Below, in pieces: positions 4,428 through 20,163 of a stretch of 23,180 bases of DNA (positions are counted from its first letter, which is position 1; the number at the start of each line of letters is the position of its first letter). A program made the translations under genes and the position numbers. Source of the stretch: a virus; the IMG/VR virus record IMGVR_UViG_3300030331_005033, positions 1 to 23,180 of that record; one strand, given 5' to 3'. The notes under the pieces were generated by a model. The model did no database searches. It saw only the letters and a program-made list of their open reading frames with translations, and was not told where the DNA came from.

Positions 4428-5501
4428 ATGAGCAGTTCATATTCATCTAGATATTTATTAGAATTAATGGCTACAGGAGCCAATGCTAATACTTGGGGTA
4501 CCAATACTAACAATAACCTCAATGTTATTGATGCTTTTTCAACAGGTTACATATCTAAATCTGTAGCAGGATCTTCAAATATTACCCTGACTACGACTAA
4601 TGGTAGTTCTACAACTGAGTCAGCTAATAGAAATATTGAGTTAACAGGTGCCCTAACGGGTGACATTGTTGTATTCATACCTGCCACAGAAAGCACTTAT
4701 ACATTTTTTAATAATACTACAGGTTCACAAACATTAACAATTGCTGCCACAGGTCATACAGCTAATGGTGTTACAATTACGCAAGGTGCAAAAACAAGTA
4801 TTTTTTGTGATGGTGCATCAAATTACAATATAAAAAAATGGGCCTCTACTGATTTAGGTTCTTTAACAGGAACTTTACCCGCAGTATCAGGAGCTAACTT
4901 AACCTCATTAAATGCATCTGAATTAGATTCAGGAACAGTTCCTAATGCTAGATTAGACGCACAGCTACAAGATATAGCAGGATTGGCAGTTACTGATAGC
5001 GCTATAATTGTTGGTAACGGATCTAATTTTGTCTTGGAGTCAGGTGCAACCATGAGAACTTCTTTGGGCTTAGGCACAGGCTCTGATGTTCAATTTAATG
5101 ATATGCAAGTAGACTCACTTGGTGTGGCGACAGCAGCATCAGGTACAAGTGGTGAGATTAGAGCTACAAATGACATCACTGCTTTTTATTCTTCTGATGT
5201 GGCATTGAAAGAAAATATAGAAAATATTTCATCACCTATGGATAAAGTTCAAAATCTCAATGGTGTTTTATTTGATTGGAAACAAGATTTTATAGATGCA
5301 AAAGGTGGTGAGGATGGTTATTTTGTGCGTAAAAGAGATGTTGGAGTAGTAGCACAAGATGTAGAAAAAGTTTTACCAGAGGTCGTAGGCACACGACCAG
5401 ATGGAGTCAAAGCTGTTAAGTATGACAGATTATGTGCATTACTAATTGAATGTGTAAAGGATTTACAAACTCAAGTGAATGATCTTAAGAAGGGAGAATA
5501 A
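4428..5501 (+). CDS. Tail fiber with C-terminal peptidase S74 chaperone domain
   Basis: This 357-residue fiber ends in an intramolecular chaperone of the peptidase S74 family. The domain starts at Ser256-Asp257 (SSDVALKENI, with Lys261), followed by LNGVLFDWKQD, DVGVVAQDVEKVLPEVV and VKYDRLCALLIECVKDLQ, all standard for the family. In known members the chaperone drives trimer folding and then cuts itself off just before the serine, so cleavage before Ser256 is predicted and the mature fiber would be about 255 residues. The N-terminus (LMATGANANTWGTNTNNNLN) and the repeated GSLTGTLPAVSG region are typical of marine phage fibers. A GGAGG at 4417-4421 precedes the ATG. It is followed by a glycine-rich adhesin. 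Confidence 0.85.
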   Translation: MSSSYSSRYLLELMATGANANTWGTNTNNNLNVIDAFSTGYISKSVAGSSNITLTTTNGSSTTESANRNIELTGALTGDIVVFIPATESTYTFFNNTTGSQTLTIAATGHTANGVTITQGAKTSIFCDGASNYNIKKWASTDLGSLTGTLPAVSGANLTSLNASELDSGTVPNARLDAQLQDIAGLAVTDSAIIVGNGSNFVLESGATMRTSLGLGTGSDVQFNDMQVDSLGVATAASGTSGEIRATNDITAFYSSDVALKENIENISSPMDKVQNLNGVLFDWKQDFIDAKGGEDGYFVRKRDVGVVAQDVEKVLPEVVGTRPDGVKAVKYDRLCALLIECVKDLQTQVNDLKKGE

Positions 5502-5504
5502 TAA

Positions 5505-6584
5505 ATGACTACACCTTCAGGTCAAATTAGCTTAGATGATGTTAACACTGAGCTAGACATATCACCAGGAACACAAATTAATATGGATGCTGCTAATGTT
5601 CGTGCATTAGCTGAAGTTCCCTCTGGTGCAATAACAATGTCTGATCTTCAAGGAAAGTCTAATGCTCAATTTATTGTTGCCTCAGGTGGTTCTGAAGCCA
5701 CTAGTGGTGATTACAAAATTCATACTTTTAATTCAAGTGGAACTTTCACCGTAAACCAAGCAGGTAATGCCGCAGGATCAACAGGCGTAGAGTACATGGT
5801 CGTTGCGGGAGGTGGTGGTGGAGGTGCAGGTAGAGGTCAACCTGAAAATAATAATCGTAAAAGACCAGGTGGTGCAGGAGCAGGTGGATTTAGAGAAGCT
5901 AAAAGTCCCTCTGCACCTTTTCCTGCGAGTCCTTTAGCATCTAGTTCTTTAATTACTGTTCCCGCAACTTCATACCCTATTTCTGTAGGTGGTGGAGGTG
6001 GGGGTGCATCACCCACTCCTAATTTTGAGGGAGTTCCTGGTAGTAGTGGATCTACTTCAAGTTTTTCAAGCATAACCTCCGCAGGAGGAGGTGCGGGAGG
6101 TGGTGGAGGAAATGGCTCTGGCACAGGCAGAAATGGAAGTTCTGGCGGCTCTGGCGGAGGTAGTGGAATGGATGGAAGTAGAGGAAATGGTAACAGTCCC
6201 CCTGTTTCCCCACCTCAAGGTAATCCAGGTGGTCAAGGAAACTATAACGGTCAAAGTGGTGGCGGAGCTACAGGATCAGGATCTGGACCTAATTCTCCTT
6301 CTGGTGGAACAGGTGGTGCAGGTGCCACAACTTCAATTACATCATCTTCAGCTTCATACGCAGGTGGTGGAGGAGGCGGTGATGGCTTTGGTGGTGCCCC
6401 TGGTGGAACAGGTGGTGGCGGCAAAGGTGGAGGTTATCGATCTGACGCAGGTAATGGATCTGCAAACACCGGAGGCGGTGGAGGAGGCGGAAGTGGTTTC
6501 CAACCTGTAGGTCCTAGTGGTTATAGACTTAATGGAGGGTCTGGTGGCTCAGGTAAGGTAGTTATAAGGTATAAATATCAATAA
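5505..6584 (+). CDS. Glycine-rich tail adhesin
   Basis: This 359-residue protein has a short N-terminal domain (SGQISLDDVNTELDISPGTQ, then VPSGAITMSDLQGKS, about residues 5-50) seen on many phage fiber-tip proteins, a linking strand (YKIHTFNSSGTFTVNQAG) and then about 250 residues dominated by Gly, Ser, Pro, Asn and Thr, beginning VEYMVVAGGGGGG. This matches the glycine-rich domain family; in phage S16-like adhesins comparable regions pack as polyglycine II helices and present receptor-binding loops. The longest loops here are Pro/Asn/Gln-rich (SPPVSPPQGNPGGQG). The C-terminus ends in the beta strand GKVVIRYKYQ. An AGGGAG Shine-Dalgarno lies before the ATG. Its place after the S74 fiber supports a receptor-binding role, by inference. 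Confidence 0.75.
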   Translation: MTTPSGQISLDDVNTELDISPGTQINMDAANVRALAEVPSGAITMSDLQGKSNAQFIVASGGSEATSGDYKIHTFNSSGTFTVNQAGNAAGSTGVEYMVVAGGGGGGAGRGQPENNNRKRPGGAGAGGFREAKSPSAPFPASPLASSSLITVPATSYPISVGGGGGGASPTPNFEGVPGSSGSTSSFSSITSAGGGAGGGGGNGSGTGRNGSSGGSGGGSGMDGSRGNGNSPPVSPPQGNPGGQGNYNGQSGGGATGSGSGPNSPSGGTGGAGATTSITSSSASYAGGGGGGDGFGGAPGGTGGGGKGGGYRSDAGNGSANTGGGGGGGSGFQPVGPSGYRLNGGSGGSGKVVIRYKYQ

Positions 6585-7096
6585 TGGCTCATTTTGCAAA
6601 ACTATCTGAGGAAAATTTAGTATTATCGGTTGAGGTAGTTGCTGACGCTGACACAACTAACGAATCAAATGTAGAGGATGAGGCAACAGGAGTTGCCTTC
6701 TTACAAGGTATTCATGGTTGGACTCTTTGGAAAAAATGTTCTTACAACACTGCGAATGGAAAGTACTATAACGAGGATAAGACGGAAGCTGAAGATCAAT
6801 CAAAAGCTTTTCGTAAAAATTACCCTAGTGTGGGTTGGTCTTATGACAGCACAATAGATGGTTTTATTCCTCCTAAACCAGAAGGTATGACATCTTGGAT
6901 TATTAATACTACTACGGGACATTGGGAGGCTCCTGTAGCATATCCAACAATTGATACTTATAATGATGGTAATAAAGATAGACCTTATACCATCTCGTGG
7001 GATGAAGCGAATGTTCGGTGGGTTGCCACTGACAAAGCTGATCCTGTAGGAAATTGGAGATGGGATGCTACTTCTTTGGCATGGGTGTCTATCTAA
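6584..7096 (+). CDS. Trp-rich conserved phage protein
   Basis: This 170-residue protein starts MAHFAKLSEENLVLSVEVVA and contains ATGVAFLQ, WTLWKKCSYNTANGKYY, FRKNYPSVGWSYDSTIDGFIPPKP, a WxxxxTTGHWEAPVAYP segment and WDEANVRWVA. This order is familiar from a conserved hypothetical family in cyanophages and other marine phages, which is usually found next to tail fiber genes. The C-terminal half consists of short Trp-anchored beta repeats (SWIINTTTGHWEAP, ISWDEANVRWVA, NWRWDATSLAWVSI) that look like small carbohydrate- or protein-contact modules. Start and preceding stop share one base (TAATG). The role is unknown, but the context points to the fiber or baseplate. Confidence 0.7.
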   Translation: MAHFAKLSEENLVLSVEVVADADTTNESNVEDEATGVAFLQGIHGWTLWKKCSYNTANGKYYNEDKTEAEDQSKAFRKNYPSVGWSYDSTIDGFIPPKPEGMTSWIINTTTGHWEAPVAYPTIDTYNDGNKDRPYTISWDEANVRWVATDKADPVGNWRWDATSLAWVSI

Positions 7097-7099
7097 TTA

Positions 7100-7660
7100 A
7101 TGTTTGTAAAAAATACTTTAGTAGAACAATTTGTATCACTAAAAAAAATAAACACGAAACATCTTCCAATAGATTTTGAATTACTAAAAAAAGAAGGTTT
7201 AAAAAGTTTTAAACAAAGAAGAGTTTTAAACAATAACAAATTTTCACCTTACAAAAATTATTATCAGGCCGATGTAAATAATAATATAGTATGGATTTAT
7301 GACATGGTTAGAGATTTTTTTGTCATAGATAATTTAAAATTAAAAAAGACTCCTATTCTCACACAACATTCTTATATAGTTGTCAATAAAGATTCTGACA
7401 CTTTTTTGCATAATCACATAGATGAGTACGATTTACATAATTCACCTGACCTTACTGCTTTAATACCAATTGTTGGTGATAAGGATAGCTTTATTGAGTT
7501 TTTTTATGAGTCAGGAAGAAAAAGACATATGAGGCAAAGAGTAAATTTATTTAAAGAAGAGATTATTTTATTTAATTCAGAATTAAAACATCGATTAATT
7601 ATAAACAAACTTCACAAAAATCTAGTATTTTTATCTTTAAAAATGCAACTTATTAGTTAG
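7100..7660 (+). CDS. Divergent 2OG-Fe(II) oxygenase-like protein
   Basis: This 186-residue protein has a basic N-terminal half with no recognised motif and a C-terminal half that looks like a jelly-roll oxygenase core. Candidate iron ligands are His106 and Asp108 in FLHNHIDEYD and His164 in FNSELKHRLIIN. The strand order ALIPI ... IEFF ... IILFNSELKH ... LVFLSLKM supports the fold. The usual arginine ten residues after the distal His is not present; Lys173 could take its place. It begins three bases after the Trp-rich protein and is the first gene of the accessory cassette. I take it as a diverged oxygenase or a cupin-like relative, with moderate doubt. It is more A-rich and lysine-rich than the structural genes upstream. 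Confidence 0.5.
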   Translation: MFVKNTLVEQFVSLKKINTKHLPIDFELLKKEGLKSFKQRRVLNNNKFSPYKNYYQADVNNNIVWIYDMVRDFFVIDNLKLKKTPILTQHSYIVVNKDSDTFLHNHIDEYDLHNSPDLTALIPIVGDKDSFIEFFYESGRKRHMRQRVNLFKEEIILFNSELKHRLIINKLHKNLVFLSLKMQLIS

Positions 7661-7680
7661 TATAACAATAAGAGAGAGAG

Positions 7681-8304
7681 ATGATATTCGAAAATTCGTT
7701 TGCTTGTTTTGATAGTGTAATTCCTTCACGAATTTGTGATTTAATCATTGCAGATGCAGAACTAAAAAATCCAGAGGTAGCTCTTACAGGTGATACTAAT
7801 AGTATAAACTTACAGAATCAAACAGACGTTTCTAAACTCTATAAAACGAGAAACTCCTCTATAGTTTGGATGGATAACTCTTGGATCTATCGAGAAGTAA
7901 TACCTTATGTATTAGAGGCTAATAAAGTATGTGGTTGGAATTTTGACTTAACAAAATCTGAATCATGTCAATTTACTAAGTATAGCGAAACTCAACATTA
8001 CACATGGCATCAAGATAGTTGGAGAAATCCTTATAACAAACCAGGCGATCCAGATCATGGATTAATAAGAAAAATATCCGTTACTGTGTCACTTGCTAGT
8101 GGCGATGATTATGATGGTGGAGATCTTGAACTTGATTTAAGAGATAACAAAGATGGCTTACCTAATATTATTAAATCAGAATTAGCTAGAAAAAAAGGAT
8201 CAATAACAGTTTTTCCTTCATACATTTGGCACAGAGTAACCCCTGTTACTAGAGGTACTAGATACTCTTTAGTAGTTTGGAATTTAGGTAACCCATTTAG
8301 ATAG
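7681..8304 (+). CDS. 2OG-Fe(II) oxygenase, prolyl-4-hydroxylase-like
   Basis: This 207-residue protein carries a full set of 2-oxoglutarate/Fe(II) dioxygenase residues: His110 and Asp112 in YTWHQDSW, distal His184 in FPSYIWHRVTPV, and 2OG-binding Arg194 in RGTRYSLVVW exactly ten residues later. The central YDGGDLELDL strand and KGSITVFPS turn are also standard for the P4H/PKHD-type family. Such enzymes hydroxylate a carbon, often on Pro, Lys, Asn or Asp side chains, using O2 and 2-oxoglutarate. A purine-rich AGAGAGAGAG stretch before the ATG acts as the Shine-Dalgarno. This is the best-conserved oxygenase of the cassette; the substrate cannot be read from the sequence. Confidence 0.85.
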   Translation: MIFENSFACFDSVIPSRICDLIIADAELKNPEVALTGDTNSINLQNQTDVSKLYKTRNSSIVWMDNSWIYREVIPYVLEANKVCGWNFDLTKSESCQFTKYSETQHYTWHQDSWRNPYNKPGDPDHGLIRKISVTVSLASGDDYDGGDLELDLRDNKDGLPNIIKSELARKKGSITVFPSYIWHRVTPVTRGTRYSLVVWNLGNPFR

Positions 8305-8312
8305 GAGTAAAT

Positions 8313-8945
8313 ATGGAACAAAATTTTTTTGACAAAAATAATTTTAATGTAGTTAAAGAGGCTATCACCTCTGAAATGGCTTTTTTCTTAAATAAATATT
8401 TTCATAATAAAAGAAAATGTTTAACCTATTTGCAAGAAACAAAAAACATATCTCATCACGATAATTCATGGGGAACATTTAAGGACACACAAATGCCAGG
8501 CACTTATTCTCATTATTCGGATCTGGCTATGGATTCGCTGTTGGAGTGGGTTCAGCCTACAATGCAGAATATTACAGGTTTAAATTTAATACCTTGTTAC
8601 TCATACGCTAGAATATACAAATATGGAGATACTCTACACCGACATAAAGACAGACCTTCATGTGAGATATCTTGCACAATGAATTTAGGTGGGGACACTT
8701 GGCCAATATTTTTAGATCCAACAGGTGAAGTTGGTAAAGAAGGTGTATCTGTAGTTTTAAATCCTGGCGATATGTTAGTTTATAAAGGATCTTTATTAGA
8801 GCATTGGAGAGAACCGTTTCAAGGTTACGAATGTTGCCAAGTTTTTTTACATTACAATGATGCTAATGGACCTAATGGTGAACAAAACTTATTTGATGGT
8901 AGGCCTTTACTTGGCTTACCTGATTGGTCCTCTAGCAAAACATGA
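8313..8945 (+). CDS. 2OG-Fe(II) oxygenase-like protein, cyanophage type
   Basis: This 210-residue protein has the oxygenase core in its C-terminal half: YARIYKYGDTLHRHKDRPSC with His111 and Asp113, followed by CTMNLGGDTWPIF, LNPGDMLVYKGSLLEHWREP with distal His164, and QVFLHYND. No basic residue stands ten positions after the distal His, so 2OG must be held differently or not at all. I recall this 'LHRHxDRPSCEIS' arrangement from a family frequent in cyanophages and annotated as 2OG-Fe(II) oxygenase. The N-terminal half is helical. AGGAGT lies before the ATG, and the end overlaps the next oxygenase gene by four bases. A catalytic role is likely but the substrate is unknown. Confidence 0.7.
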   Translation: MEQNFFDKNNFNVVKEAITSEMAFFLNKYFHNKRKCLTYLQETKNISHHDNSWGTFKDTQMPGTYSHYSDLAMDSLLEWVQPTMQNITGLNLIPCYSYARIYKYGDTLHRHKDRPSCEISCTMNLGGDTWPIFLDPTGEVGKEGVSVVLNPGDMLVYKGSLLEHWREPFQGYECCQVFLHYNDANGPNGEQNLFDGRPLLGLPDWSSSKT

Positions 8946-9523
8946 AGGAGTATTTTTTAGACTTAAACACTTTTATGGGAGCTTGGTACATTCCTAAAAA
9001 CTTGTGTGATTCTTTAATAAATTATTTTGAGTATAATAAAGACTATGCCAAAAAAGGTGCTTGTGGTGGTAAAACTGATGCAATCATAAATAAAAATTAT
9101 AAAGACTCCTTAGATTTATCCATAGGTAAAGATAATAATGATAACATTATAGGTGCGTATAGAAAAGAATTACAAAAAGTTTTAGATAAATATTTAGATA
9201 AATTTCCTGCTAGTAATCAAGTTGCTCCTTTTAGTATTCTTGAAAATTATAATATGCAAAAATATTCAATTGGTGGAGGATTTAAAGAATGGCATACAGA
9301 AAATAATGGAGAAAAAAGCACAATAAATAGACACTTAGTTTTTATGACTTATTTAAATGATGTAGAGGATGGTGGCACAGAATTCAAACATCAAGATATT
9401 ATTACACCTGCTGAAAAAGGGTTGACCTTAATATGGCCATCATGGTGGACACACGTTCATAGGGGGCAGATAAGTAACAAAAAAGAAAAATATATTGTTA
9501 CAGGATGGTATGGCTTTATCTAA
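8942..9523 (+). CDS. 2OG-Fe(II) oxygenase with an HxE metal motif
   Basis: This 193-residue protein shows YSIGGGFKEWHTENN with His118 and Glu120 in place of the common HxD, then FMTYLNDVEDGGTEFKHQD, and a C-terminal LIWPSWWTHVHRG with His171/His173, and Lys183 in KYIVTGWYGFI ten residues after His173. Lysine at this place binds 2OG in prolyl-4-hydroxylases, so His173 is the more likely distal ligand. HxE triads are known in several active dioxygenases. The 'DGGTEF ... WPSxWTHxHRG ... KYxxTGW' pattern is familiar from marine phage and bacterial P4H-like proteins. It overlaps both neighbours. Function as a hydroxylase is well supported; the target is not. Confidence 0.8.
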   Translation: MKEYFLDLNTFMGAWYIPKNLCDSLINYFEYNKDYAKKGACGGKTDAIINKNYKDSLDLSIGKDNNDNIIGAYRKELQKVLDKYLDKFPASNQVAPFSILENYNMQKYSIGGGFKEWHTENNGEKSTINRHLVFMTYLNDVEDGGTEFKHQDIITPAEKGLTLIWPSWWTHVHRGQISNKKEKYIVTGWYGFI

Positions 9524-10079
9524 AGACTTAGAAGATTTTATATTTTATAAAAATATCTTTCCAAGAGATATAATAGATGGAATATTAAATGAATATAAAG
9601 AAAATATTTTTGATAGAGATTCTCATCATAATAAAATATCAAGACATTTAGGTGAGCTAGACATTAGCGATCGATCATTAATAAATAGCAGAAATAGTTA
9701 TGTAAGACAAAAATTATTCGTCGAAACAAAAGATCAAGTAGAAGTTTTAATAGAAGAATATAAAAAATACATTTTACCTTATGGTTTACCTATAGTTGAG
9801 TGCAGTCCATTTTCTTTAAGACAAATGCATGAAGGAGATTATTACGAAGAACATAATGATGACGGAATAGGCAGTGCCACCGGTCAACATAAAATAACAG
9901 TTTCAATTTGTTTAAACGAAAATTATGAGGGAGGTGACTTTACTTTTTTTCAAGAGTCATTGTCTTATACATTAAAAAAGGGAGATGTATTAATGTTTCC
10001 CTCCTCTTTTCAATATCCTCATGGTGTTAAAAAAATTACAAAAGGTACTCGTTATCAGTTGGTCTTATGGCTAAGATAA
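9510..10079 (+). CDS. 2OG-Fe(II) oxygenase, prolyl-4-hydroxylase-like
   Basis: I place the start at the ATG at 9510 (MALSKDLED), giving 189 residues; a TTG 15 bases earlier is possible. In this numbering the metal ligands are His115 and Asp117 in YYEEHNDDG and distal His171 in QYPHGVKK, with Arg181 in KGTRYQLVLW ten residues later. The strand HKITVSICLNENYEGGDFTF and KKGDVLMFPSSF are standard family elements. It resembles the enzyme encoded at 7681 in overall plan but differs in most positions, so the two are not a recent duplication. It overlaps the upstream gene by 14 bases and the downstream glycosyltransferase-like gene by 13, tying hydroxylase and transferase translation together. Confidence 0.85.
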   Translation: MALSKDLEDFIFYKNIFPRDIIDGILNEYKENIFDRDSHHNKISRHLGELDISDRSLINSRNSYVRQKLFVETKDQVEVLIEEYKKYILPYGLPIVECSPFSLRQMHEGDYYEEHNDDGIGSATGQHKITVSICLNENYEGGDFTFFQESLSYTLKKGDVLMFPSSFQYPHGVKKITKGTRYQLVLWLR

Positions 10080-10756
10080 TATTCTGCTCTGGTCAGACAG
10101 GTGATTGGGGATTTGTTCAAAGTATTAAAGAACAACAGATACCAGAGTTTGAATATTGGTTTTTACACGATAATCATATTGAAGCTACGGGTAATAAAGG
10201 TTGGAACTATATAGATACGAGTAATTTTTTAGTGACAAAATCACATCCAAAAAGAAATAGATTTATGAAGATGATGACCTATGAGTTTTTTTCAGATTTT
10301 GATTATCTTATTTGGCTAGATTGTAAATTCTATGTTCCAAAAGATTTTTTACAATTTTGTCTAAAACTTATAAAAGAGGAGAAACCCAATTGGTTATTAA
10401 GTAAACACTCCTATAGAACAACAATGCAACAAGAAATAGAACATATGAAAAATAAAAGAGATTTTACAGACTCTCAAATAAATGATGCTGTAAAACACAT
10501 CAACCCTAATTTGTGGCTGTCCATAGATGGTTCTTGGCATATTAGAAAAAATAATAAAAAAAACAAAGAGATAGGTCAAAAGTGGTATGAGCTTACTGAC
10601 AAGTGTTATCCAGACAATTTAGGCCATGTTAGAGATCAGTTTACTTTTTCGTCTGCAATAGAGGATAAGAATTACTTGAATTTAAAATTTAATCATCATC
10701 ACCTCTACAAATATGCGATTCATATAAGAGAGAAATTTTATACATCAGACTTATGA
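10067..10756 (+). CDS. DUF616 glycosyltransferase-like protein, copy 1
   Basis: This 229-residue protein matches the DUF616 (TOD1/MUCI70-like) pattern: an N-terminal KIIFCSGQTG strand, YWFLHDNHIEATGNKGWNYI, the central FDYLIWLDCKFYVPKDF corresponding to the family's 'siWiDgk' element, SWHIRKN, and the C-terminal VRDQFTFSSAIE, corresponding to 'RDQlSf'. DUF616 proteins are regarded as GT-A-fold glycosyltransferase-like enzymes of plants, bacteria and viruses. The WLDCK aspartate may bind the metal or nucleotide sugar. There is no membrane anchor, so it acts in the cytoplasm. It is clearly homologous to the next gene. Acceptor and donor sugar are unknown. Confidence 0.65.
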   Translation: MAKIIFCSGQTGDWGFVQSIKEQQIPEFEYWFLHDNHIEATGNKGWNYIDTSNFLVTKSHPKRNRFMKMMTYEFFSDFDYLIWLDCKFYVPKDFLQFCLKLIKEEKPNWLLSKHSYRTTMQQEIEHMKNKRDFTDSQINDAVKHINPNLWLSIDGSWHIRKNNKKNKEIGQKWYELTDKCYPDNLGHVRDQFTFSSAIEDKNYLNLKFNHHHLYKYAIHIREKFYTSDL

Positions 10757-11406
10757 AAATAATATTTTATTCAGCACAAACAAGTAATAGAGGATTTATT
10801 CCTTCAATTAAAGAACAAAGCATATATGAATTTGATTATTGGTTTGCCCATGATAATCATTTTGAAGCAACAGAAAACAAAGGTTGGAATTATATAAACA
10901 TAAAACACAGGTACCCTAGTCTTGGTTATTATAAAAAACATCGATTAGTTAAAATGGTTCCAAGACTTTTATTTGATAATTTTGATTATACTGTATGGGT
11001 AGATTGTAAGTTTTATCAACACAAAGATTTTTATAAACACTGTTTAAATATCATTAATAATGAGCAACCTGAGTGGATGGCTTGTTATCACAAACAAAAA
11101 AGAACTTTAAAACAAGAATTAGATTTTGCGGCTAACAACCGTTATGTCCCACAGAAAGAGTTAGAAATATTAGAGAACAAATTAAGATTTAAATTTTTTA
11201 GCACTGATACTTGTTGGTTAATTAGAAAGAACACAGATAAAAATCACGATATAGGGCATCAGTGGTTTAAAGATACAGATAAATATTTTTCTTATACTAC
11301 CAGAGATCAACTGACCTTTCCTCTATGTGTTGATGAAAAATATCTAAACTTAAATCATTCGATAGAAGAGTTAGAAAAGCACTCTTTTATAAGGCATGTT
11401 ATGTAA
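10753..11406 (+). CDS. DUF616 glycosyltransferase-like protein, copy 2
   Basis: This 217-residue protein is a tandem paralogue of the preceding gene. The first 45 residues align without gaps (KIIFYSAQTSNRGFIPSIKE, then YWFAHDNHFEATENKGWNYI), and the central FDYTVWVDCKFYQHKDF and C-terminal TTRDQLTFPL elements are both kept. The middle (residues about 120-150) and the C-terminus have diverged heavily, including loss of the His-rich tail of copy 1. Conservation of the Asp-Cys-Lys and Arg-Asp-Gln elements suggests that both copies are active, perhaps with different acceptors or acting in sequence. The genes overlap by four bases (ATGA). Donor and acceptor are not visible in the sequence. Confidence 0.65.
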   Translation: MKIIFYSAQTSNRGFIPSIKEQSIYEFDYWFAHDNHFEATENKGWNYINIKHRYPSLGYYKKHRLVKMVPRLLFDNFDYTVWVDCKFYQHKDFYKHCLNIINNEQPEWMACYHKQKRTLKQELDFAANNRYVPQKELEILENKLRFKFFSTDTCWLIRKNTDKNHDIGHQWFKDTDKYFSYTTRDQLTFPLCVDEKYLNLNHSIEELEKHSFIRHVM

Positions 11407-12084
11407 ATGTTTAGCTATAAAGAATATGAAAAAATACTTTCAATGTTTGATTTTGTAGATTTTACAGAATTGACAAAGGGTAAAGCAGTATTAAGACATG
11501 ATGTAGAATATAGTCCTAAAAGAGCTTTAGAAATTGCAAAGATAGATGCAGAGCATGACATAAAAAGTAGCTTCTTTTTTCAAGTTTTAAGCACTTGTTA
11601 TAATTTATTCTCTGTTGATAACAGAGAAATTGTTTATGAAATATTAAGTATGGGACATAAAATAGGGTTACATGTCTATTGTTCTTTTGTTTCTGATTAC
11701 AAGTTGAATGATTTAAAAAGTGAAATTGTAAAACAAAAAAACTTAATCGATAATGTTTTTCAAGTTGATAGGTTTTGTTTACATAGACCTAAGGTTTGGA
11801 TGTTAGAACAAAATGATGATTATATTTGTGGCATGTTAAATGCTTATGGTAGATCCTATTTTAATTATCCTAAACCTACGCAAGTTAAGTATTTTGCAGA
11901 TAGCAATCATCAATGGAAATATGGTTATCCCTCATATAATAGTAGCAAAATTCAAATAAATATTCATCCTGACTCTTGGTCAAAAAATGGAGAAAGTATA
12001 AATAAAAATTTTAATAACCTAGCATTAGAAAATATGGATGTATTTAAAGAAGTCTTAAAAAGAGAGGGTAGACACTTTAGGTGA
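11407..12084 (+). CDS. Polysaccharide deacetylase-like (CE4/NodB fold) protein
   Basis: This 225-residue protein has elements of the NodB-homology fold: LRHDVEYSPKRALEIAKID with His31-Asp32, IKSSFFFQVLS, IVYEILSMGHKIGLHVYCSF with His84 and His89, CLHRPKVWM, and a late KIQINIHPDSW. The GHKIGLH element equals motif 2 of carbohydrate esterase family 4, but the second His of HxxxH is replaced by Ser93, so the metal site is incomplete or built differently. Proteins with 'RHDV' and 'GHEIGLH' occur in bacterial surface-polysaccharide clusters. It starts directly after the second DUF616 gene stop and overlaps the epimerase gene downstream. A glycan-modifying role is inferred; deacetylation is not certain. 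Confidence 0.55.
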   Translation: MFSYKEYEKILSMFDFVDFTELTKGKAVLRHDVEYSPKRALEIAKIDAEHDIKSSFFFQVLSTCYNLFSVDNREIVYEILSMGHKIGLHVYCSFVSDYKLNDLKSEIVKQKNLIDNVFQVDRFCLHRPKVWMLEQNDDYICGMLNAYGRSYFNYPKPTQVKYFADSNHQWKYGYPSYNSSKIQINIHPDSWSKNGESINKNFNNLALENMDVFKEVLKREGRHFR

Positions 12085-13031
12085 AAATACTTGTCTTAGG
12101 AGGTCATGGATTTATTGGCAGTCATACTTGTAATATTTTAAAAAAACAAGGATATACAATAGGTGTTGTAGATTGTCATCATCAATACTTTACTTTCCCA
12201 GATAAAGAATATCAAACTATTTTAAAACAAAGACAAGATCATTGTATGGCAGATAAATTTTACAAAGGTAAAATTGAGGATGCAGAGTTTATGAGTAATA
12301 CCTTTAATACATTTAAACCAGATGCAGTTATACATTTTGCCACTTACCCAAATGTACACATGGTAAAACGTAATTCTTTTGACGCTACTAATAATATGAT
12401 AAATGCTACAATTATTATCTTAGACTTATGTGTAAAACATAATGTAGATAAATTCGTTTTTTCAAGTTCATCTATGGCTTACGGACATTTTAAAACTGAA
12501 GCTCCAATGGAAGATCATGCAACAGAACCTCGTTCTTTATATGGCACCTATAAATTATGTGGTGAGAGAATGTGTATAACCTGGAATAAAGAACATAATT
12601 TAAAATACATAATAATGAGGCCCTCTGCTCTTTATGGAACAAGGGACTTAATAACAAGAGTTATTTCTCAAATGACTTATTCTGCAATCACTAAAAAAAA
12701 GATTTTTGTTAGAGGTCCTAATAATAAATTGGATTTTTCTTGGGTTGAAGATGTTGCCGATGCTTTTGCTAGAGTCACTACACAACCTATTTACAATGAA
12801 GTTTTTAATTGCACCAGAGGTAAAGGGGTAACAATAATGAAAGCTGCAAAAATAATACAAAATATTTTAGGTGGTGAGATTATTGAAGAAGAACAAGATT
12901 TATTAACCTCTAATAGAGATACCTTAAATAGCTGTAAAATTAAAAATATGACAAGATGGGATCCTAAAGTAGATATAGAAGAAGGCATACCTAGGTACAT
13001 AAATTGGTTTAAGAAAAATTATAATGTTTAA
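12081..13031 (+). CDS. NAD-dependent epimerase/dehydratase (extended SDR, GalE-like)
   Basis: This 316-residue protein is a full-length extended short-chain dehydrogenase. It has the Rossmann GxxGxxG motif at Gly7-Gly10-Gly13 (LVLGGHGFIGSH), the serine strand FSSSSMAYG at about 127-135, the catalytic Tyr154-x3-Lys158 (YGTYK), the RPSALYG strand and FSWVEDVADAF late in the chain. These enzymes change the sugar of a nucleotide sugar, for example by 4-epimerisation or 4,6-dehydration. The start is a GTG at 12081 overlapping the upstream TGA; no nearer ATG fits the Rossmann strand. It overlaps the second epimerase gene by eight bases. It probably supplies the sugar donor for nearby transferases. 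Cys-Gly after the Tyr/Lys motif is typical. Confidence 0.85.
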   Translation: MKILVLGGHGFIGSHTCNILKKQGYTIGVVDCHHQYFTFPDKEYQTILKQRQDHCMADKFYKGKIEDAEFMSNTFNTFKPDAVIHFATYPNVHMVKRNSFDATNNMINATIIILDLCVKHNVDKFVFSSSSMAYGHFKTEAPMEDHATEPRSLYGTYKLCGERMCITWNKEHNLKYIIMRPSALYGTRDLITRVISQMTYSAITKKKIFVRGPNNKLDFSWVEDVADAFARVTTQPIYNEVFNCTRGKGVTIMKAAKIIQNILGGEIIEEEQDLLTSNRDTLNSCKIKNMTRWDPKVDIEEGIPRYINWFKKNYNV

Positions 13032-13713
13032 GATATTATTAAGTGGACATAAAGGTTTTATAGGTAGGCACATATACGATCATTTTAAAAGTGACTATCA
13101 TATAGACACTTTAGGTAGAGGAGATAAGTTACCAAACAAAAATTATGATCTTGTTATTCATTTAGCAGGAAGCTCTGGTGTACGAGAGAGTTGGAAGAAA
13201 CCATTAAAATACGTTATAGACAACATATTGTTATCTTGTAAAATATTTAAAAAATACAATAGAGTCATATTTGCTAGTACAAGTGCAGTAGTAGAGCCGT
13301 GGAGAAATCCTTATGTTTTTAGTAAATATATTGTAGAGAAAATAGCACCAAAAAACTCACTAGCTGTACGATTTACCACTGTCTATGGCCCGTGGTCTAG
13401 AAAAAATATGTTTATATCCAAATTAATTGATAATAATTTGCAATATGTTAGTATTGATTGCATAAGGGATTTTATACACGTTTATGATGTAATACAGTTT
13501 TTTGAACTTATAATAAAAAGTAAAATGGAAGGAGTTATTAATGTTGGCACAGGTAAATCTATACCTGTAACTAATTTAATAAATTATAAATTACCCACTA
13601 AAAAATCGTCCTTCTTAGAAGTAAAAAAAGAAAAAGTTGATATTACAAAATTAAAATCTTTAGGATTTAAACCTGTATTTAAAGTAGAGGAATATGTAAA
13701 TCGTGTTAGATAA
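13024..13713 (+). CDS. Short NAD-dependent epimerase/reductase (extended SDR)
   Basis: This 229-residue protein is a second extended SDR. It has Gly8-Gly11-Gly14 (LLSGHKGFIGRH), an LVIHLAGSSGV strand, the FASTSAVVEPW serine strand, Tyr97-x3-Lys101 (YVFSK), VRFTTVYGPW and RDFIHVYDVIQF. It is about 80-90 residues shorter than usual for the class; the N-terminal strands are compressed and the C-terminal substrate domain is small, but all catalytic residues remain, so it looks streamlined rather than broken. Such proteins include dTDP-6-deoxy-L-hexulose reductases and UDP-glucose epimerases. It has little similarity to its neighbour beyond the fold. Its 3' end overlaps the next oxygenase gene by 11 bases. 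Confidence 0.8.
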   Translation: MFKILLSGHKGFIGRHIYDHFKSDYHIDTLGRGDKLPNKNYDLVIHLAGSSGVRESWKKPLKYVIDNILLSCKIFKKYNRVIFASTSAVVEPWRNPYVFSKYIVEKIAPKNSLAVRFTTVYGPWSRKNMFISKLIDNNLQYVSIDCIRDFIHVYDVIQFFELIIKSKMEGVINVGTGKSIPVTNLINYKLPTKKSSFLEVKKEKVDITKLKSLGFKPVFKVEEYVNRVR

Positions 13714-14158
13714 TCCAATAGTTTGTTTTGATAATTTTTTTTCGGATAACATGTATAACCACATAGTAGAAGATACTAAAAGTAATTGGGAATTAAGAGG
13801 AGATTATATTTACAAAAATTTAGAAGATGATTTTTTTACAAAAGATTGTGTATTACATATGAGTAATAAATTCAATCAAAATATAAGTTTATATAGGGGC
13901 TATGCACATGGACATAAGTTTCATAAACATTATATACATCAAGACAATAATGCAACGCACACTGCTATCTTGTTTGTTGCAAAAGAATATGAAGAGGATT
14001 GGTTAGGCGGAACTATTGTTTATACTGATACTACTAATTACATACCTTTTGCACCTAATAGACTTTTAATTTTTCATGCTAGTCTTAATCACATAGGCAC
14101 TAATTTTCAAAACACTGACAATTTTAGAGTTCAATATATATGGAAAATAAATGCCTAA
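13703..14158 (+). CDS. Small 2OG-Fe(II) oxygenase
   Basis: This 151-residue protein uses a GTG start at 13703 inside the end of the epimerase gene. It has His79 and Asp81 in YIHQDNNATHTAILFV, a WLGGTIVYTDT strand, FAPNRLLIFHASLNHIGTNF with distal His130, and Arg142 in FRVQYIW. The distal His-to-Arg distance is twelve, slightly longer than the common ten. It is a compact jelly-roll with little N-terminal extension, below the usual 180-220 residues. It shows no special similarity to the other oxygenases of the cassette. The gene is placed between sugar-nucleotide enzymes and the ParB-like gene and overlaps both neighbours. Confidence 0.8.
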   Translation: MLDNPIVCFDNFFSDNMYNHIVEDTKSNWELRGDYIYKNLEDDFFTKDCVLHMSNKFNQNISLYRGYAHGHKFHKHYIHQDNNATHTAILFVAKEYEEDWLGGTIVYTDTTNYIPFAPNRLLIFHASLNHIGTNFQNTDNFRVQYIWKINA

Positions 14159-14588
14159 AATAAATTGGAATACATCTTCTACTAATACTTTTCCTGATGA
14201 CTCATCAGTTTTAGTGCCTGAGAGTTTAACAAGAAAAAGAGTTTTGACCTATATGAAACCACAAGATTTTTTAAAGTTGGCTGAGAAAATAGATTTTAAT
14301 AGTGCAAGAGCTGAGAAAGCTTTTGAGTTATTTAAAAAAAATACTATAGGACTAAGCGTTCCCTTTTTAGGAGCTAATAAAAATAAAAAAGGACAGATAG
14401 AGATTAACTACCACGAAGGTAGACATCGAGTAGAGTATACAAGAAGAATAGATCCTGACACCCCTATACCGGTGTATATTACTCTTGATGAAGAGGCAGG
14501 TGACTTACCTAGTGACGCAGATTTTATTAATCAAGAAGGTGAACTTGTTAATGTAAAAATATTTATGAAAGAGAGTATAAAATGTTAA
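14151..14588 (+). CDS. ParB/Srx-like HEGRHR-motif protein
   Basis: This 145-residue protein contains INYHEGRHRVEYTRR, with His88-Glu-Gly-Arg91-His-Arg93, followed by IDPDTPIPVYITLDEE. The spacing 'x-H-E-G-R-H-R ... IPVYI' resembles the ParB N-terminal/sulfiredoxin-like fold, in which the G-x-H/R-R loop binds nucleotide. In ParB the loop binds CTP; in relatives it can serve ATP hydrolysis, kinase or nuclease chemistry. I recall similar HEGRHR proteins in phage genomes, without known function. The N-terminal part (residues 25-65) is helical. No helix-turn-helix is apparent, so a partition role is unlikely. It overlaps the neighbouring genes by seven to eight bases, inside the glycan cassette. 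Confidence 0.55.
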   Translation: MPKINWNTSSTNTFPDDSSVLVPESLTRKRVLTYMKPQDFLKLAEKIDFNSARAEKAFELFKKNTIGLSVPFLGANKNKKGQIEINYHEGRHRVEYTRRIDPDTPIPVYITLDEEAGDLPSDADFINQEGELVNVKIFMKESIKC

Positions 14589-15394
14589 CACAAGAAGAAT
14601 TAAAAAAGAAAGAGTATAAAATATTTTTAGGTATGCCTATGTATGGTGGCATGTTATCAGAAGCCACACTACATGGTCTATTAGAATTACAACAATGGTC
14701 TATGGCTTTTAATATTCAATTAAGAATACAAACTATGGGTAATGAAAGTTTAATTACAAGAGCAAGAAACACAATAGTGTCAATGATGATGGATCAAAAT
14801 GATTTTGTAGCTACACATCTTTTGTTTATTGATGCTGATATAGGGTTTACTTGGAAAAATATTGAAAGACTAATTTGTGCAGAAAAGGACATAGCTTGTG
14901 GGATTTATCCAAGAAAACATCTACATTTTGAAAAAGCTGCAAATGTTCTTGCAAATTTTCCAAACGCTACACCTGAGGAGATTGAAGCTAAGATACTTGG
15001 TTATAATGTAAATTTTGACAATCCTAAACATCTGATGGGAGAAAATGGTTTTTTTAAAGTTAATGAAGCTGCAACAGGTATGATGTTAGTAAAGAGAAAT
15101 GTGTTTAGCACCATGTTTAAAAAATATCCAGAAAGAAAATATGACTCTGATCAAATTGTAAACGGAGGGTCCTACAGGTCAGATAATTGTTATGATTTAT
15201 TTGCTGTTGGTCCATATGAAACTGTTGGACAAAAAAGATATTTATCAGAGGATTATTACTTTTCTAGATTGTGGCAAGAGTGTGGTGGAGAGATATGGGC
15301 AGACTTATCTATGCCATTAACACATTTTGGTAACAGAGGCTTCAAGGGTCATGTTGGTGCTTTAGTAGCGAAGATGCCGAATGATAAAAATTAA
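14582..15394 (+). CDS. GT-A-type glycosyltransferase-like protein
   Basis: This 270-residue protein resembles the phage glycosyltransferase family that begins 'kiflg.P.ygg' and carries SLITRARNTIVSMMM, HLLFIDADIGFTWKNIERLI and CGIYPRKHL. The Asp-Ala-Asp of FIDADIGF is the likely DxD metal and nucleotide-sugar site. Later elements are EAATGMMLVKRNVF, LSEDYYFSRLWQECGGEIWAD and LTHFGNRGF, where the Glu-Asp of SEDYYF fits the catalytic base region and the His of THFG a further metal ligand. It has no membrane segment. It has no similarity to the DUF616 pair beyond a general GT-A plan. Acceptor and sugar are unknown; epimerases upstream may supply the donor. Confidence 0.7.
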   Translation: MLTQEELKKKEYKIFLGMPMYGGMLSEATLHGLLELQQWSMAFNIQLRIQTMGNESLITRARNTIVSMMMDQNDFVATHLLFIDADIGFTWKNIERLICAEKDIACGIYPRKHLHFEKAANVLANFPNATPEEIEAKILGYNVNFDNPKHLMGENGFFKVNEAATGMMLVKRNVFSTMFKKYPERKYDSDQIVNGGSYRSDNCYDLFAVGPYETVGQKRYLSEDYYFSRLWQECGGEIWADLSMPLTHFGNRGFKGHVGALVAKMPNDKN

Positions 15395-15881
15395 AGTAAA
15401 CAACAACGAAATATTAAGAGAGCATAATGTTTTATCTGAAGAGGATAGAGAGCTTATTCTTAAAGACGTTAAATATGAAATAAAAAATAACCTTTGTAAT
15501 TATGCAGATCCTTATCAGACACATGCAAATCTTTTACAAAGATATCAAGATAAAACTTATTGGAGTAGACTATATTCGACGGCTAGAGCCATGATTGACA
15601 ACAATTATATTTATTATAAATCATGGGCTAATTTATCAAACGAGCATAACAATTATCAGTTTCATCAACATGAAAACAAAATGACATGTGTATACTATCT
15701 TAAGAGCAATTTACCAGAGTATGGCACAAAATTAGAGGGTGATGTAATATTAGAGTCAACACAAAATTCAATGATAGCTTTTGATGGTATGATACTTCAC
15801 TCTGTAGCAAATATGCCTAAGAATATAGCAAAAGATAATCCAAGATATTCTATTGTTTTCAACTTTAAATTATCGCAATGA
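15381..15881 (+). CDS. 2OG-Fe(II) oxygenase-like protein, HxH type
   Basis: This 166-residue protein has SWANLSNEHNNYQFHQHENKM with His95 and His97 (Glu98 follows), MTCVYYLKSN, MIAFDGMILHSVANMP with distal His140, and Arg155 in PRYSIVFNF. The pattern 'W.n........H.H......vYYl ... H.v.p ... RyS..fN' is that of the TIGR02466-like putative 2OG-Fe(II) oxygenase family, whose members keep HxH rather than HxD. It overlaps the transferase gene by 14 bases and the next gene by four. The N-terminal half is helical. Whether the HxH site binds iron as in the classical enzymes is not established from the sequence. Confidence 0.65.
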   Translation: MIKIKVNNNEILREHNVLSEEDRELILKDVKYEIKNNLCNYADPYQTHANLLQRYQDKTYWSRLYSTARAMIDNNYIYYKSWANLSNEHNNYQFHQHENKMTCVYYLKSNLPEYGTKLEGDVILESTQNSMIAFDGMILHSVANMPKNIAKDNPRYSIVFNFKLSQ

Positions 15882-16351
15882 AACTTATTGAACTATCAAT
15901 TTCACAAAAAGATTGTGAAGAAATTACAAACTTTGTTTATCAAGAGAAAAAAAATTGGAAAAAAGATCTTAATAATGTAAAAGCTCTAAGCTCTGGATTT
16001 TACCCAGATTATGATTTTATTCACGACATAGGAGATTTTTGTTGTAAAAATGTTCTACCACAGGAAACTAATCATTCTCATTGGCATAAAAGCTGTTGGT
16101 GGGTAAATTTATATGAAAAAGGTCATTATACTAATCCGCATCATCATAATCCTGAGGAATACTCAATGATCGTAATAGTAAAACCTGCATTGGAAAAATA
16201 TTGTCTAAACTTTCATACAGAATTTGCATCTTACAAAATTGAGGAAAGACAAGGACTTTGTTTACTTTTTGAATCATCTCTAAAACATAGTGTTGACCCT
16301 GTCAGTAGTGATAGAATTACAATAGCTATGGATTTTAGAAAAAATCAATAG
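15878..16351 (+). CDS. 2OG-Fe(II) oxygenase-like protein, His-triplet type
   Basis: This 157-residue protein follows the same plan as its upstream neighbour: CWWVNLYEKGHYTNPHHHNP with His88-His89-His90, YSMIVIVKP, LLFESSLKHSVDPV with distal His137, and Arg146 in DRITIAMDF. The 'WWVNxYxxGxxNxPHxH' element is typical of TIGR02466-like oxygenase-related phage proteins. Two cysteines (FCCKN) and several Trp/His residues (SHWHKSCWW) precede the core. It is the last gene of the large cassette; 12 bases separate it from the nozzle/gp10-like gene. It is probably a metal-dependent dioxygenase, but the triple His makes the exact ligand pair uncertain. Confidence 0.65.
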   Translation: MKLIELSISQKDCEEITNFVYQEKKNWKKDLNNVKALSSGFYPDYDFIHDIGDFCCKNVLPQETNHSHWHKSCWWVNLYEKGHYTNPHHHNPEEYSMIVIVKPALEKYCLNFHTEFASYKIEERQGLCLLFESSLKHSVDPVSSDRITIAMDFRKNQ

Positions 16352-16363
16352 TATATTGATATC

Positions 16364-18190
16364 ATGCCCCTAGTAAATTTTAGACCCGCTCCTGGTATAA
16401 ATAAGGAAGTTACCGATTACACAGGTCAAGGTAAATGGACTGATGGTGATATGGTGCGTTTTTTTCAAGGATCGGCTCAAAAGATAAAAGGTTGGGAGAA
16501 GTTTATAAGCACAACCCTAATTGGTGTAGCTAGAGATGCTCATGCATGGGTTGGATTAGATGGTACGAGATTACTTGCTGTAGGCACAGATAGAAAACTG
16601 TACATAGTTGTTGAGGGTTTAGCGTATGACATCACCCCAATAAGAGAAACACAAGCCTTGACTAACCCATTTACCACTAATGCAACTACATTTGTAACAG
16701 TCACTGATACCGCACATGGAGCAGCTAAGGGTGACTTTGTAACATTTGACTCTTTTTCAACGATAGATGGACTAGATATGAATAAAGAGTTTGAAATTAC
16801 ATCTATTACAGATAATAATAATTATGTTGTTACTGCCACATCTGCAGCATCTGGCTCAACATCAGGTGGTGGTGGTTCAGGTAACGCAAAATATCAAATA
16901 CAAATTGGACCAGAAGTATCTACATCAGCATTTGGTTGGGGCACTGATACATGGGGTGCAGGTGGTTGGGGTAGCCCTTCTACATCAACTACTGTTACAT
17001 TAGAGGCTAGACAATGGTCTTTAGATAATTTTGGAGAAGATTTAATAGCAACAGTTTTAAATGGAGGTGCCTTTAGATGGGACACATCTAGTGGAGTCGC
17101 AACAAGAGCTGCAGCTATCACAAACGCACCAACAGCCTCTAGATTAAGTTTAGTGTCGACACCTGATAGGCATTTGTTATTTTTTGGTACAGAAAAAACC
17201 ATTGGCACAACAAATACACAAGATGATTTATTATTAAGATTTTCCGATCAGGAAGATATAAACACATATCAACCTACCGCAGAAAACACAGCAGGTTCTT
17301 TGCGTATAGCTGACGGCTCACGGATCGTGGCAGCAGAGCGTTCAAGAGGTCAAATACTTGTATGGACAGACACCTCATTACATTCTTTACAATTTATTGG
17401 TCCACCTTTTACATTTGGACTTAGACAGCTAGGTCAAAACTGTGGAATAGTTGGTATTCATGCAGGTGTAGATATTAATGGTGTAAGCTATTGGATGTCG
17501 CAAGACTCATTCTTTCTTTTTGATGGTTCTGTGAAAAAATTACCTTGTACTGTAGAACAATTTATTTTTAATAATTTAAATGTAACAGGTGCAGAAAATG
17601 CTTTTGCAGGTCATAATGGTGAGTTTAATGAAATTATGTGGTTTTACCCTCGCACAGGATCTGACATTATTAATGCAATTGTTGCTTATAACTATTTGGA
17701 GGGTACATGGTGGACAGGAACATTAGATAGAACTACTTGGTTAGATAGAGAGGTATATGATAATCCTGTAGCTACAGATTATTTACCGACTACAACGGCA
17801 AACAATGAAGTTGTATCTGGACTTACTGATGGTGCTACTCAGCTGTTTTTACATGAAACAGGAAATAATGGTGATGGAGAGGCAATTACAGCTTTTGTTA
17901 AATCAGGGGTGGTACAAATAGCAGAAGGTAACGATTTTTCTTTTGTGTCTAAATTGATACCTGATATTGAAGATCAAGAAGGCACATTAAATGCTAAATT
18001 AGAATTTAAAAATTATCCTAATAATAGCACAAGCGTTACAAAAACAGTTTCTTTTCAAGATAATACAGATTTTGTAAGCCTTCGTGGCAGAGGTAGAGAA
18101 TTTACAGTAAATGTTGTATCGAATACTACAGGCACAGCTTGGAGATTAGGAACTCAAAGATTTGATATACAGCCTGACGGTAGGAGATAA
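16364..18190 (+). CDS. Tail nozzle / packaged-DNA stabilisation protein, gp10-like
   Basis: This 608-residue protein is the largest in the window. It starts MPLVNFRPAPGINKEVTDYT and MVRFFQGSAQKIKGWEKF, includes paired strands that look like beta-propeller blades (AWVGLDGTRLLAVGTDRKLY, LIATVLNGGAFRWDTSSG, LLFFGTEK, ILVWTDTSLHSLQFIG, VSYWMSQDSFFLFDGSVKKL, EIMWFYP) and ends in a beta domain with RGREFTVNVVSN and WRLGTQRFDIQPDGRR. This arrangement, including the C-terminal 'pdGrR', is characteristic of marine podovirus proteins related to P22 gp10 and the T7 nozzle. They form the lower tail tube under the adaptor. A linker near 190-203 holds a Trp-Gly motif shared with the gene at 3027. It resumes the structural set after the cassette. 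Confidence 0.7.
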   Translation: MPLVNFRPAPGINKEVTDYTGQGKWTDGDMVRFFQGSAQKIKGWEKFISTTLIGVARDAHAWVGLDGTRLLAVGTDRKLYIVVEGLAYDITPIRETQALTNPFTTNATTFVTVTDTAHGAAKGDFVTFDSFSTIDGLDMNKEFEITSITDNNNYVVTATSAASGSTSGGGGSGNAKYQIQIGPEVSTSAFGWGTDTWGAGGWGSPSTSTTVTLEARQWSLDNFGEDLIATVLNGGAFRWDTSSGVATRAAAITNAPTASRLSLVSTPDRHLLFFGTEKTIGTTNTQDDLLLRFSDQEDINTYQPTAENTAGSLRIADGSRIVAAERSRGQILVWTDTSLHSLQFIGPPFTFGLRQLGQNCGIVGIHAGVDINGVSYWMSQDSFFLFDGSVKKLPCTVEQFIFNNLNVTGAENAFAGHNGEFNEIMWFYPRTGSDIINAIVAYNYLEGTWWTGTLDRTTWLDREVYDNPVATDYLPTTTANNEVVSGLTDGATQLFLHETGNNGDGEAITAFVKSGVVQIAEGNDFSFVSKLIPDIEDQEGTLNAKLEFKNYPNNSTSVTKTVSFQDNTDFVSLRGRGREFTVNVVSNTTGTAWRLGTQRFDIQPDGRR

Positions 18191-18513
18191 TGGAACCCTT
18201 AGAGGAGCTTAAAATTTGGAAACAAAAACCCTTTATTAAATCTAATTATGAGAACATACATATTTTTTATGATGATCAAAAATATGTAAGAATGAAGCCT
18301 AAAACACAAATAAGTTTATCACCTGGTTTTTTACATTTAATACTAAAAAAGCCGGGACATTGGGCAAAAGAAAATATAAAGATAGAGGGTGATGTTACAC
18401 TCTGTAATGAAACACATGATGTAATATATTACACTCTTATTGAATCGTTGATATCAGACGAAGATAATGAGTTTAAATTGTATGTAAAGAACGGAATACA
18501 AAAACACCAATGA
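18190..18513 (+). CDS. Hypothetical protein
   Basis: This 107-residue soluble protein is not recognised. It reads as an alternating strand pattern with Lys-rich stretches (LEELKIWKQKPFIKS, KYVRMKPKTQISLSPGFLHL) and no cysteine pair, signal peptide or membrane helix. It has one cysteine (TLCNETHDV) and a C-terminus that ends KNGIQKHQ. Its ATG shares a base with the TAA of the nozzle gene (TAATG) and its TGA overlaps the ATG of the next oxygenase gene. Such tight coupling suggests a small partner of one of these neighbours. Beta content and 'SLSPGFLHLIL' loosely recall jelly-roll proteins, but no metal ligands are visible. Confidence 0.6.
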   Translation: MEPLEELKIWKQKPFIKSNYENIHIFYDDQKYVRMKPKTQISLSPGFLHLILKKPGHWAKENIKIEGDVTLCNETHDVIYYTLIESLISDEDNEFKLYVKNGIQKHQ

Positions 18514-20124: not shown

Positions 20125-20163
20125 CCTATTGATTTCTTAGTTATTCGCCTATAAAATTATAAT

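Follow-up and report, generated by a model that had tools for sequence, protein, structure and literature searches.

We put at roughly one half the probability that an island of oxygenase and glycosyltransferase genes in a marine phage is the tailoring-enzyme locus of an exchangeable tail-fibre module, predicted to hydroxylate the fibre and to tailor glycans on it. In relatives some of these enzymes accompany the fibre genes in several phage families and hosts, a sign that phages may themselves carry out the chemical finishing of the fibres with which they bind their hosts. The island occupies positions 7100-16351 of the window, by which we mean the whole 23,180-base stretch of IMG/VR virus record IMGVR_UViG_3300030331_005033. 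It consists of 15 open reading frames (ORFs), all on the plus strand, rather than the 14 genes counted in an earlier, sequence-only reading of this DNA, whose claim of a modification island was as a whole confirmed, with corrections, by ORF calls, family searches and motif conservation. The directly established basis comprises the gene content, the intact metal motifs, the folds, the co-inheritance of fibre and core oxygenases, and the recurrence of the genes across phage families and hosts. The window is assigned to a marine phage of the HTVC023P type because its right-flank structural protein (gene 16364; genes are named here by their first position) matches those of Pelagibacter phages HTVC023P and HTVC027P; the lake phage DSL-LC04 is matched as well. 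The genes on which the argument turns are as follows.

4428-5501, plus strand: S74 (endosialidase-chaperone) tail fibre, where the exchangeable fibre module begins (PF13884 1e-13, phrog_8215 1e-51)
5505-6584, plus strand: glycine-rich virion/adhesin-like protein, candidate substrate (PF21722 3e-11)
6584-7096, plus strand: fibre-accessory protein, candidate substrate or chaperone (phrog_7759 3e-33)
7681-8304, plus strand: core 2-oxoglutarate (2OG)-Fe(II) oxygenase of phrog_61/PF13640, PiuC/PKHD-like (PF13640 1e-14; H110/D112/H184 in 28/28 homologues)
8313-8945, plus strand: core 2OG oxygenase, prolyl-hydroxylase fold (phrog_2954 1e-48; H111/D113/H164 in 56/56)
9495-10079, plus strand: 2OG-Fe(II) oxygenase, overlapping a DUF616 gene (PF13640 4e-13; H120/D122 in 36/36, H176 in 37/37)
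14582-15394, plus strand: core GT-A-fold glycosyltransferase, phrog_1574, assigned by fold
16364-18190, plus strand: virion structural ("stabilization") protein, fixed right flank (phrog_3287 5e-83)

A scan of IMG/VR with the right-flank protein recovered 80 relatives, 46 of which hold a complete interval, that is, have a single contig running from the S74 fibre through the island to the 16364 gene. Four fibre types (a-d) were defined by the small genes adjoining the S74 fibre, and the number of changes of this label along gene trees (quick maximum-likelihood or FastTree trees; permutation p values at the floor of 999 permutations) was 3 for 8313 and 4 for S74, where the minimum is 3 and shuffled labels average 16. 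The corresponding numbers were 15 for 14582 (shuffled 19), 11 for 16364 and 8 for 3027, the gene directly before the fibre. Within type b, S74, 8313, 9495 and two accessory genes have mutual distance correlations of 0.75-0.95, compared with 0.13-0.25 between this block and 3027 and 0.40-0.53 between the block and 14582; once 16364 is controlled for, the values are 0.71-0.93 inside the block, 0.27-0.38 for 14582 and 0.08 for 3027 with S74. Type c encodes the two core oxygenases as a single fusion protein. The fibre, the small accessory gene and the oxygenase pair (7681/9495-type and 8313-type) are passed on together as one block, to which neither the flanking structural gene nor 14582 belongs.

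The same block is found in other phages. Glycine-rich, 6584-type, 7681-type and 8313-type genes occur together in HTVC023P, 023Pt_psg01 and HTVC033P, and the SAR11 myovirus HTVC008M has the same four-gene block with the oxygenases on the strand opposite to the glycine-rich and 6584-type genes. The T4-like Synechococcus phages S-SM1 and S-RSM4 have, in this order, a fibre gene, the glycine-rich gene, the 6584-type gene and an oxygenase array ending in 8313-type genes, one member of which is annotated "leprecan" and others "denV" or "ferrochelatase"; S-CAM8 has fibre, glycine-rich gene, carbamoyltransferase, 7681-type and 8313-type genes without the 6584-type. Homologues of the glycine-rich 5505 adjoin oxygenase arrays in seven loci (L005, L007, L104, L105, L113, L114 and L115), and 6584-type genes do so in HTVC008M, S-SM1 and S-RSM4; 6584-type and 7681-type genes are about 9 kb apart in Bellamy and about 28 kb apart in the Melnitz phages. 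Since the block spans two hosts and two morphologies, a role in host metabolism is less likely than one in the fibre. Of the virion decoration that the sequence-only reading had favoured, the part that stands is the virion link of the core oxygenases, which are inherited with fibre genes and accompany the glycine-rich gene in unrelated phages of two hosts.

Among the relatives, the island proved to be a core with exchangeable parts. The complete intervals measure 2.9-7.0 kb, compared with 10.9 kb in this phage, and contain 14582 in 46 of 46 cases and an 8313-type oxygenase in 42 of 46. Between one and six oxygenases per complete island were detected by profile, a variable count and a minimum, since the profiles used miss divergent members. 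Content to the right of 8313 swaps freely, type-b loci alone having 19 distinct sets of genes between it and 14582. Other islands hold a sulfotransferase, a carbamoyltransferase and DUF6065 by Pfam, and methyltransferase-like, heptosyltransferase-like and radical-SAM-like genes as judged by reading the sequence. An insertion that relatives lack, which would have left 7096 and 16364 adjacent in them, was rejected, as the slot is occupied in all 46; the nearest to empty is an interval of 1.2 kb, with an 83-aa gene and a glycine-rich gene of about 300 aa, in remoter relatives whose 16364 protein shows about 54% identity. A single coherent 14-gene cassette was likewise rejected in favour of a core (8313-type and 7681/9495-type oxygenases and the glycosyltransferase 14582) joined by a rare accessory DUF616-(CE4)-SDR sub-operon, SDR denoting short-chain dehydrogenase/reductase.

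The island is not an assembly artefact: a second contig, L089 (45.5 kb), has a counterpart of every gene in it, the DNA being 99.8% identical over the island with 44 substitutions, and this also rules out a chimera; the remaining 24 kb of L089 holds tail and replication genes. The structural genes enclose it as described earlier, the fibre, glycine-rich and accessory genes ending at 7096 and the virion structural gene resuming at 16364. The claim of overlapping genes stands for 11 of the 14 junctions (4-29 nt), the others being one abutting pair and two gaps of 20 nt and 8 nt. An Rfam search of the window gave no match, and no tRNA was found.

Exactly eight oxygenase-like proteins lie in the island, as had been claimed, five with an HxD/E...H motif and three with HxH...H. 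In every oxygenase family the metal ligands are invariant among alignable homologues. Besides 7681, 8313 and 9495, the oxygenases of the island, and two that follow the structural gene 16364 beyond its right edge, are these.

7100-7660, plus strand: oxygenase-like, HxH...H (conserved motif without library match; H104/H106/H164 in 7/7 homologues)
8942-9523, plus strand: 2OG-Fe(II) oxygenase (PF13640 2e-9; H118/E120/H173 in 12/12)
13703-14158, plus strand: 2OG-like oxygenase, phrog_274 type (phrog_274 4e-9; H79/D81/H130 in two homologues; R142)
15381-15881, plus strand: oxygenase, HxH...H, phrog_81/PF13759 (PF13759 weak, 8e-4; H95/H97/H140 in 4/4)
15878-16351, plus strand: oxygenase, HxH...H (PF13759 2e-6; H88/H90/H137 in 14/14)
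18510-19046, plus strand: oxygenase, HxH...H, outside the island (PF13759 1e-7)
19043-19585, plus strand: 2OG-like oxygenase, phrog_274 type, HxD...H, outside the island (phrog_274 5e-25)

Four of these proteins (7681, 8313, 8942 and 9495) belong to the 2OG-Fe(II) superfamily, their HxD/E...H motif being invariant in 12-56 homologues, with PF13640 matched by 7681, 8942 and 9495 and the fold of 8313 recognised from an AlphaFold2 (AF2) model by Foldseek. Another four (7100, 15381, 15878 and 18510) are candidate members, with HxH...H in place of HxD/E...H; 15878 and 18510 pass PF13759, 15381 falls below its cut-off and 7100 is unmatched. A sequence search of the PDB with 18510 was unproductive. 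The family phrog_274, labelled "DNA endonuclease V" (denV in cyanophages), matches 13703, 15381, 19043 and SSM1_054 of S-SM1 (L113), and its label is doubtful, since its members carry an oxygenase-type HxD...H (HxH...H in 15381). To the right of 16364 there are two more variable spots (18190-19585 and 19768-20164), which hold oxygenases, DUF6065 and sulfotransferase-like genes in relatives. HTVC027P has three oxygenase-like genes before its 16364 homologue (L006 18283-19944), on the strand opposite to the structural genes.

The 8313 family has been known under another name. Its AF2 model has a predicted local distance difference test (pLDDT) score of 93, the top fold match is the prolyl 4-hydroxylase (P4H) of P. 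putida (4iw3), and the best 50 fold matches are all oxygenases, going by their titles. The ferrochelatase domain PF00762 had no match in the window or in three relatives, although eight control genomes do match. An identity of 8313 as ferrochelatase or heme partner was rejected on the lack of PF00762, the oxygenase fold and the invariant HxD...H; the model indicates that the "ferrochelatase" label of phrog_2954 denotes an oxygenase. The family phrog_3531 bears the same label, and its first part is matched by 8313 and its second by 7681/9495, as in the fused type-c protein. Both families match 2OG oxygenases in spite of their label, and homologues of 8313 occur in more than 150 phage records, where many are annotated as ferrochelatase.

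The one GT-A-type transferase named earlier was upheld by fold. The model of 14582 (pLDDT 76) has a GT-A fold with a DxD-type motif, DAD, whose D84 and D86 are invariant in 33 sequences, and its nearest solved folds by Foldseek are COLGALT1 and LH3 (E 5e-7 to 2e-5; template modelling score, TM, 0.40-0.50). Pfam returned only weak Anp1 matches (best 0.007), and a procollagen-lysine dioxygenase of Megavirus is among the viral matches. We take 14582 to work, in all probability, like a GT-A transferase, and do not claim membership of the collagen family (GT25).

The remaining genes of the island form the sugar part, together with one small gene.

10067-10756, plus strand: DUF616 (TOD1/MUCI70) glycosyltransferase-like (PF04765 2e-6; 27.8 bits against a cut-off of 21.4)
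10753-11406, plus strand: DUF616 (TOD1/MUCI70) glycosyltransferase-like (PF04765 2e-4; 21.0 bits, just below the same cut-off of 21.4)
11407-12084, plus strand: CE4-like, polysaccharide-deacetylase-like (weak: Pfam E 0.09, TIGR02764 8e-4)
12081-13031, plus strand: sugar-nucleotide SDR, epimerase/4,6-dehydratase type (PF01370 5e-43; 4zrm 2e-31)
13024-13713, plus strand: short sugar-nucleotide SDR (PF01370 6e-17)
14151-14588, plus strand: small protein, ParB call unconfirmed

The two DUF616 proteins and the two SDRs were correctly named before; 10067 belongs to the DUF616/TOD1-MUCI70 family by its PF04765 score and 10753 is its paralogue, 42% identical. The CE4-like call for 11407 is weak yet plausible: PF01522 scores 13.1 bits against a cut-off of 23.1, while RHD and GHKIGLH segments are visible in the protein and its homologues, and these homologues lie in cellular and phage glycan/polysaccharide gene clusters. 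A ParB-like identity of 14151 was not borne out, as the protein has a short GRHR motif only and no significant match in Pfam, PHROGs, NCBIfam, PDB or phages. Searches of phages by tblastn with 10067, 11407 and 14151 gave no match, and viral-contig scans with 10067 and 10753 recovered the near-identical contig alone. The DUF616/SDR part is rare among relatives. The stretch 9495-DUF616-X-SDR-SDR recurs in L052 and L112 and partly in L059, all three of which have the pair of 9495 and DUF616 genes. Because L112 (type b) has another fibre type than the window (type a), the sugar part goes with more than one fibre. In place of CE4, L052 (1481-2368) and L112 (5976-6863) encode a radical-SAM-like CxxxCxxC protein between the DUF616 and SDR genes.

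A plausible scenario is that the two core 2OG-Fe(II) oxygenases (7681/9495-type and 8313-type) would act inside the cell late in infection, if they are expressed late as we suppose, and would hydroxylate side chains of the S74 fibre, the glycine-rich protein or the small accessory protein. The GT-A enzyme 14582 would then attach a sugar, either at these hydroxyl groups or on a glycan that they carry, both the attachment and the order of steps being presumed. In this phage the DUF616 transferases may join in, supplied by the SDR and CE4 sugar-nucleotide enzymes, and the variable oxygenases, or in relatives the sulfotransferase, carbamoyltransferase, methyltransferase-like and radical-SAM-like proteins, would diversify the decoration. 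The presumed benefit is a fibre with altered receptor binding or stability. A wider proposal, which we offer tentatively, is that podo- and myoviruses of SAR11 and T4-like cyanophages share a collagen-like maturation of receptor-binding fibres, in which fibre-specific prolyl/lysyl-hydroxylase-like pairs would be followed by an enzyme of collagen glycosyltransferase fold and by swappable sugar, sulfate and carbamoyl enzymes, and that this may be the main reason for their many 2OG oxygenases.

Several observations weigh against fibre tailoring. The distant relatives L083-L088 have a glycine-rich protein and a fibre without an oxygenase; 14582 does not follow fibre type, and some of its relatives sit in replication modules. 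Its collagen-type fold match is moderate at the TM and pLDDT values given above, the next fold outside GT25 is only several-fold weaker in E, and its profile found no sequence-level match to COLGALT or LH3 in the PDB. No virion peptide data were found, and among the titles listed by literature searches there was no direct report of phage fibre hydroxylation. Adjacent backbone gene pairs also correlate (0.66-0.71), reflecting physical linkage; as linkage by itself keeps neighbouring genes together, co-inheritance does not prove a function, and since linkage contributes to the correlations, recurrence in other phages weighs more.

The main rival, which we regard as doubtful but serious, is that the enzymes remodel the host surface glycan that serves as receptor of the matching fibre late in infection, blocking superinfection or the sticking of progeny to debris. 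Enzyme and fibre types would travel together because both match one receptor, so that the co-inheritance with the fibre fits equally; DUF616, SDR and CE4 types are found in cell-surface polysaccharide clusters, and the carbamoyl- and sulfotransferases of relatives are typical glycan tailors. However, the block is kept in phages of SAR11 and Synechococcus, whose surfaces should differ, and the DUF616/SDR sub-operon, the likeliest maker of surface sugars, goes with two fibre types.

Less likely is auxiliary metabolism, in which the oxygenases would drain 2-oxoglutarate, repair DNA or, with the "ferrochelatase", serve iron/heme metabolism; we hold it to be improbable. It has been proposed in print: 2OG-Fe(II) oxygenases of cyanophages were reported as host-metabolism genes (PMC3037559, PMC9602691), the former study suggesting nitrogen/2OG signalling and DNA repair, oxygenase clusters with "ferrochelatase" in HTVC023P-type pelagiphages were reported as auxiliary metabolic genes (PMC9599517), and ecological conclusions were drawn from oxygenase and ferrochelatase in seasonal marine viruses (PMC11561400). 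However, the ferrochelatase partner is itself an oxygenase, and a 2OG drain would not be expected to show many diverged copies, alleles linked to the fibre or a constant location among the virion genes. More improbable still is a neutral hot-spot, where conserved flanks act as recombination anchors and gather moron genes without common function, the fibre linkage being merely physical. The variable content between 8313 and 14582 and the backbone correlations fit such a hot-spot, while the presence of 8313-type genes in 42 and of 14582 in all 46 complete islands, the invariant active sites and the reappearance of the block with a changed strand in a different virus family speak against it. Hypermodification of DNA bases in the manner of TET/JBP or T4 systems is very unlikely: the combination of oxygenase and glycosyltransferase, a weak Tet_JBP cross-match of 9495 (0.017) and hypermodification genes elsewhere in some HTVC023P-type phages (PMC9599517) favour it, but the best families are PF13640 and PF13759, the island is placed among the fibre genes and apart from those for replication, and no modification gene was recognised by reading the ORFs in the rest of L089, a partial genome.

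Outside these subjects, four further features of the window may be mentioned. A 192-aa ORF with a TTG start at 162-740 belongs to phrog_28122, a family of unknown function, and relatives have it conserved on the left side of their virion operon. The tail protein at 3027-4376 has an N-terminal cupredoxin-like H...C..H..M pattern (GHPLQLS...YYCFYHSGM), possibly a type-1 copper site. A Methyltransf_24-type methyltransferase (20428-21042, PF13578 1e-18) stands amid structural genes, in the same position in L053, L054 and L080. The genes 1887-2573 and 21381-22268, about 19 kb apart, have distances that correlate at r 0.86 (n=12, type-b loci), unlike most genes between them; their products are perhaps interacting adaptor and internal virion proteins.

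The two commonest 2OG oxygenase types of marine phages thus sit in a tail-fibre module in several phage families, and the concrete question arises whether the fibre is their substrate, where earlier suggestions were nitrogen signalling, DNA repair and iron/heme metabolism. Should the fibre turn out to be hydroxylated and glycosylated, a host range predicted only from its sequence would leave out one layer. The re-identification of phrog_2954 touches the ecological conclusions on seasonal marine viruses (PMC11561400).

Among known systems, the collagen lysyl hydroxylase and glycosyltransferase pathway (LH3/PLOD3, COLGALT1), which has viral counterparts in Mimiviridae, resembles the island in combining an oxygenase with a GT-A transferase and in the fold of 14582. 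The genes are separate here, and neither a significant sequence match nor a collagen Gly-X-Y substrate was identified. The analogy with collagen hydroxylysine glycosylation drawn in the sequence-only reading was strengthened, unexpectedly, by the nearest folds, although at TM 0.40-0.50. The bacterial prolyl 4-hydroxylase (4iw3, with EF-Tu) shares its fold with 8313 at about 13% identity, and PKHD-type PiuC is matched by 7681 at the sequence level. In mycobacteriophages, phage-encoded glycosyltransferases are thought to decorate the phage's own virion, in other phages and hosts than these, and those systems are not known to include oxygenases. For one of them, Maravista, capsid glycosylation was inferred (PMC11256854). 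The closest precedent is the marine phage oxygenases described as auxiliary metabolic genes, of which up to 24 2OG-Fe(II) members per genome have been counted, without tested function (PMC9602691). Phage type, gene families and oxygenase co-location had already been reported there and read as host metabolism, whereas here they are placed in a fibre module with a core glycosyltransferase; new are this link to the fibre module, the core glycosyltransferase, the re-identified ferrochelatase family, the separation of core from swappable parts and the measured co-inheritance.

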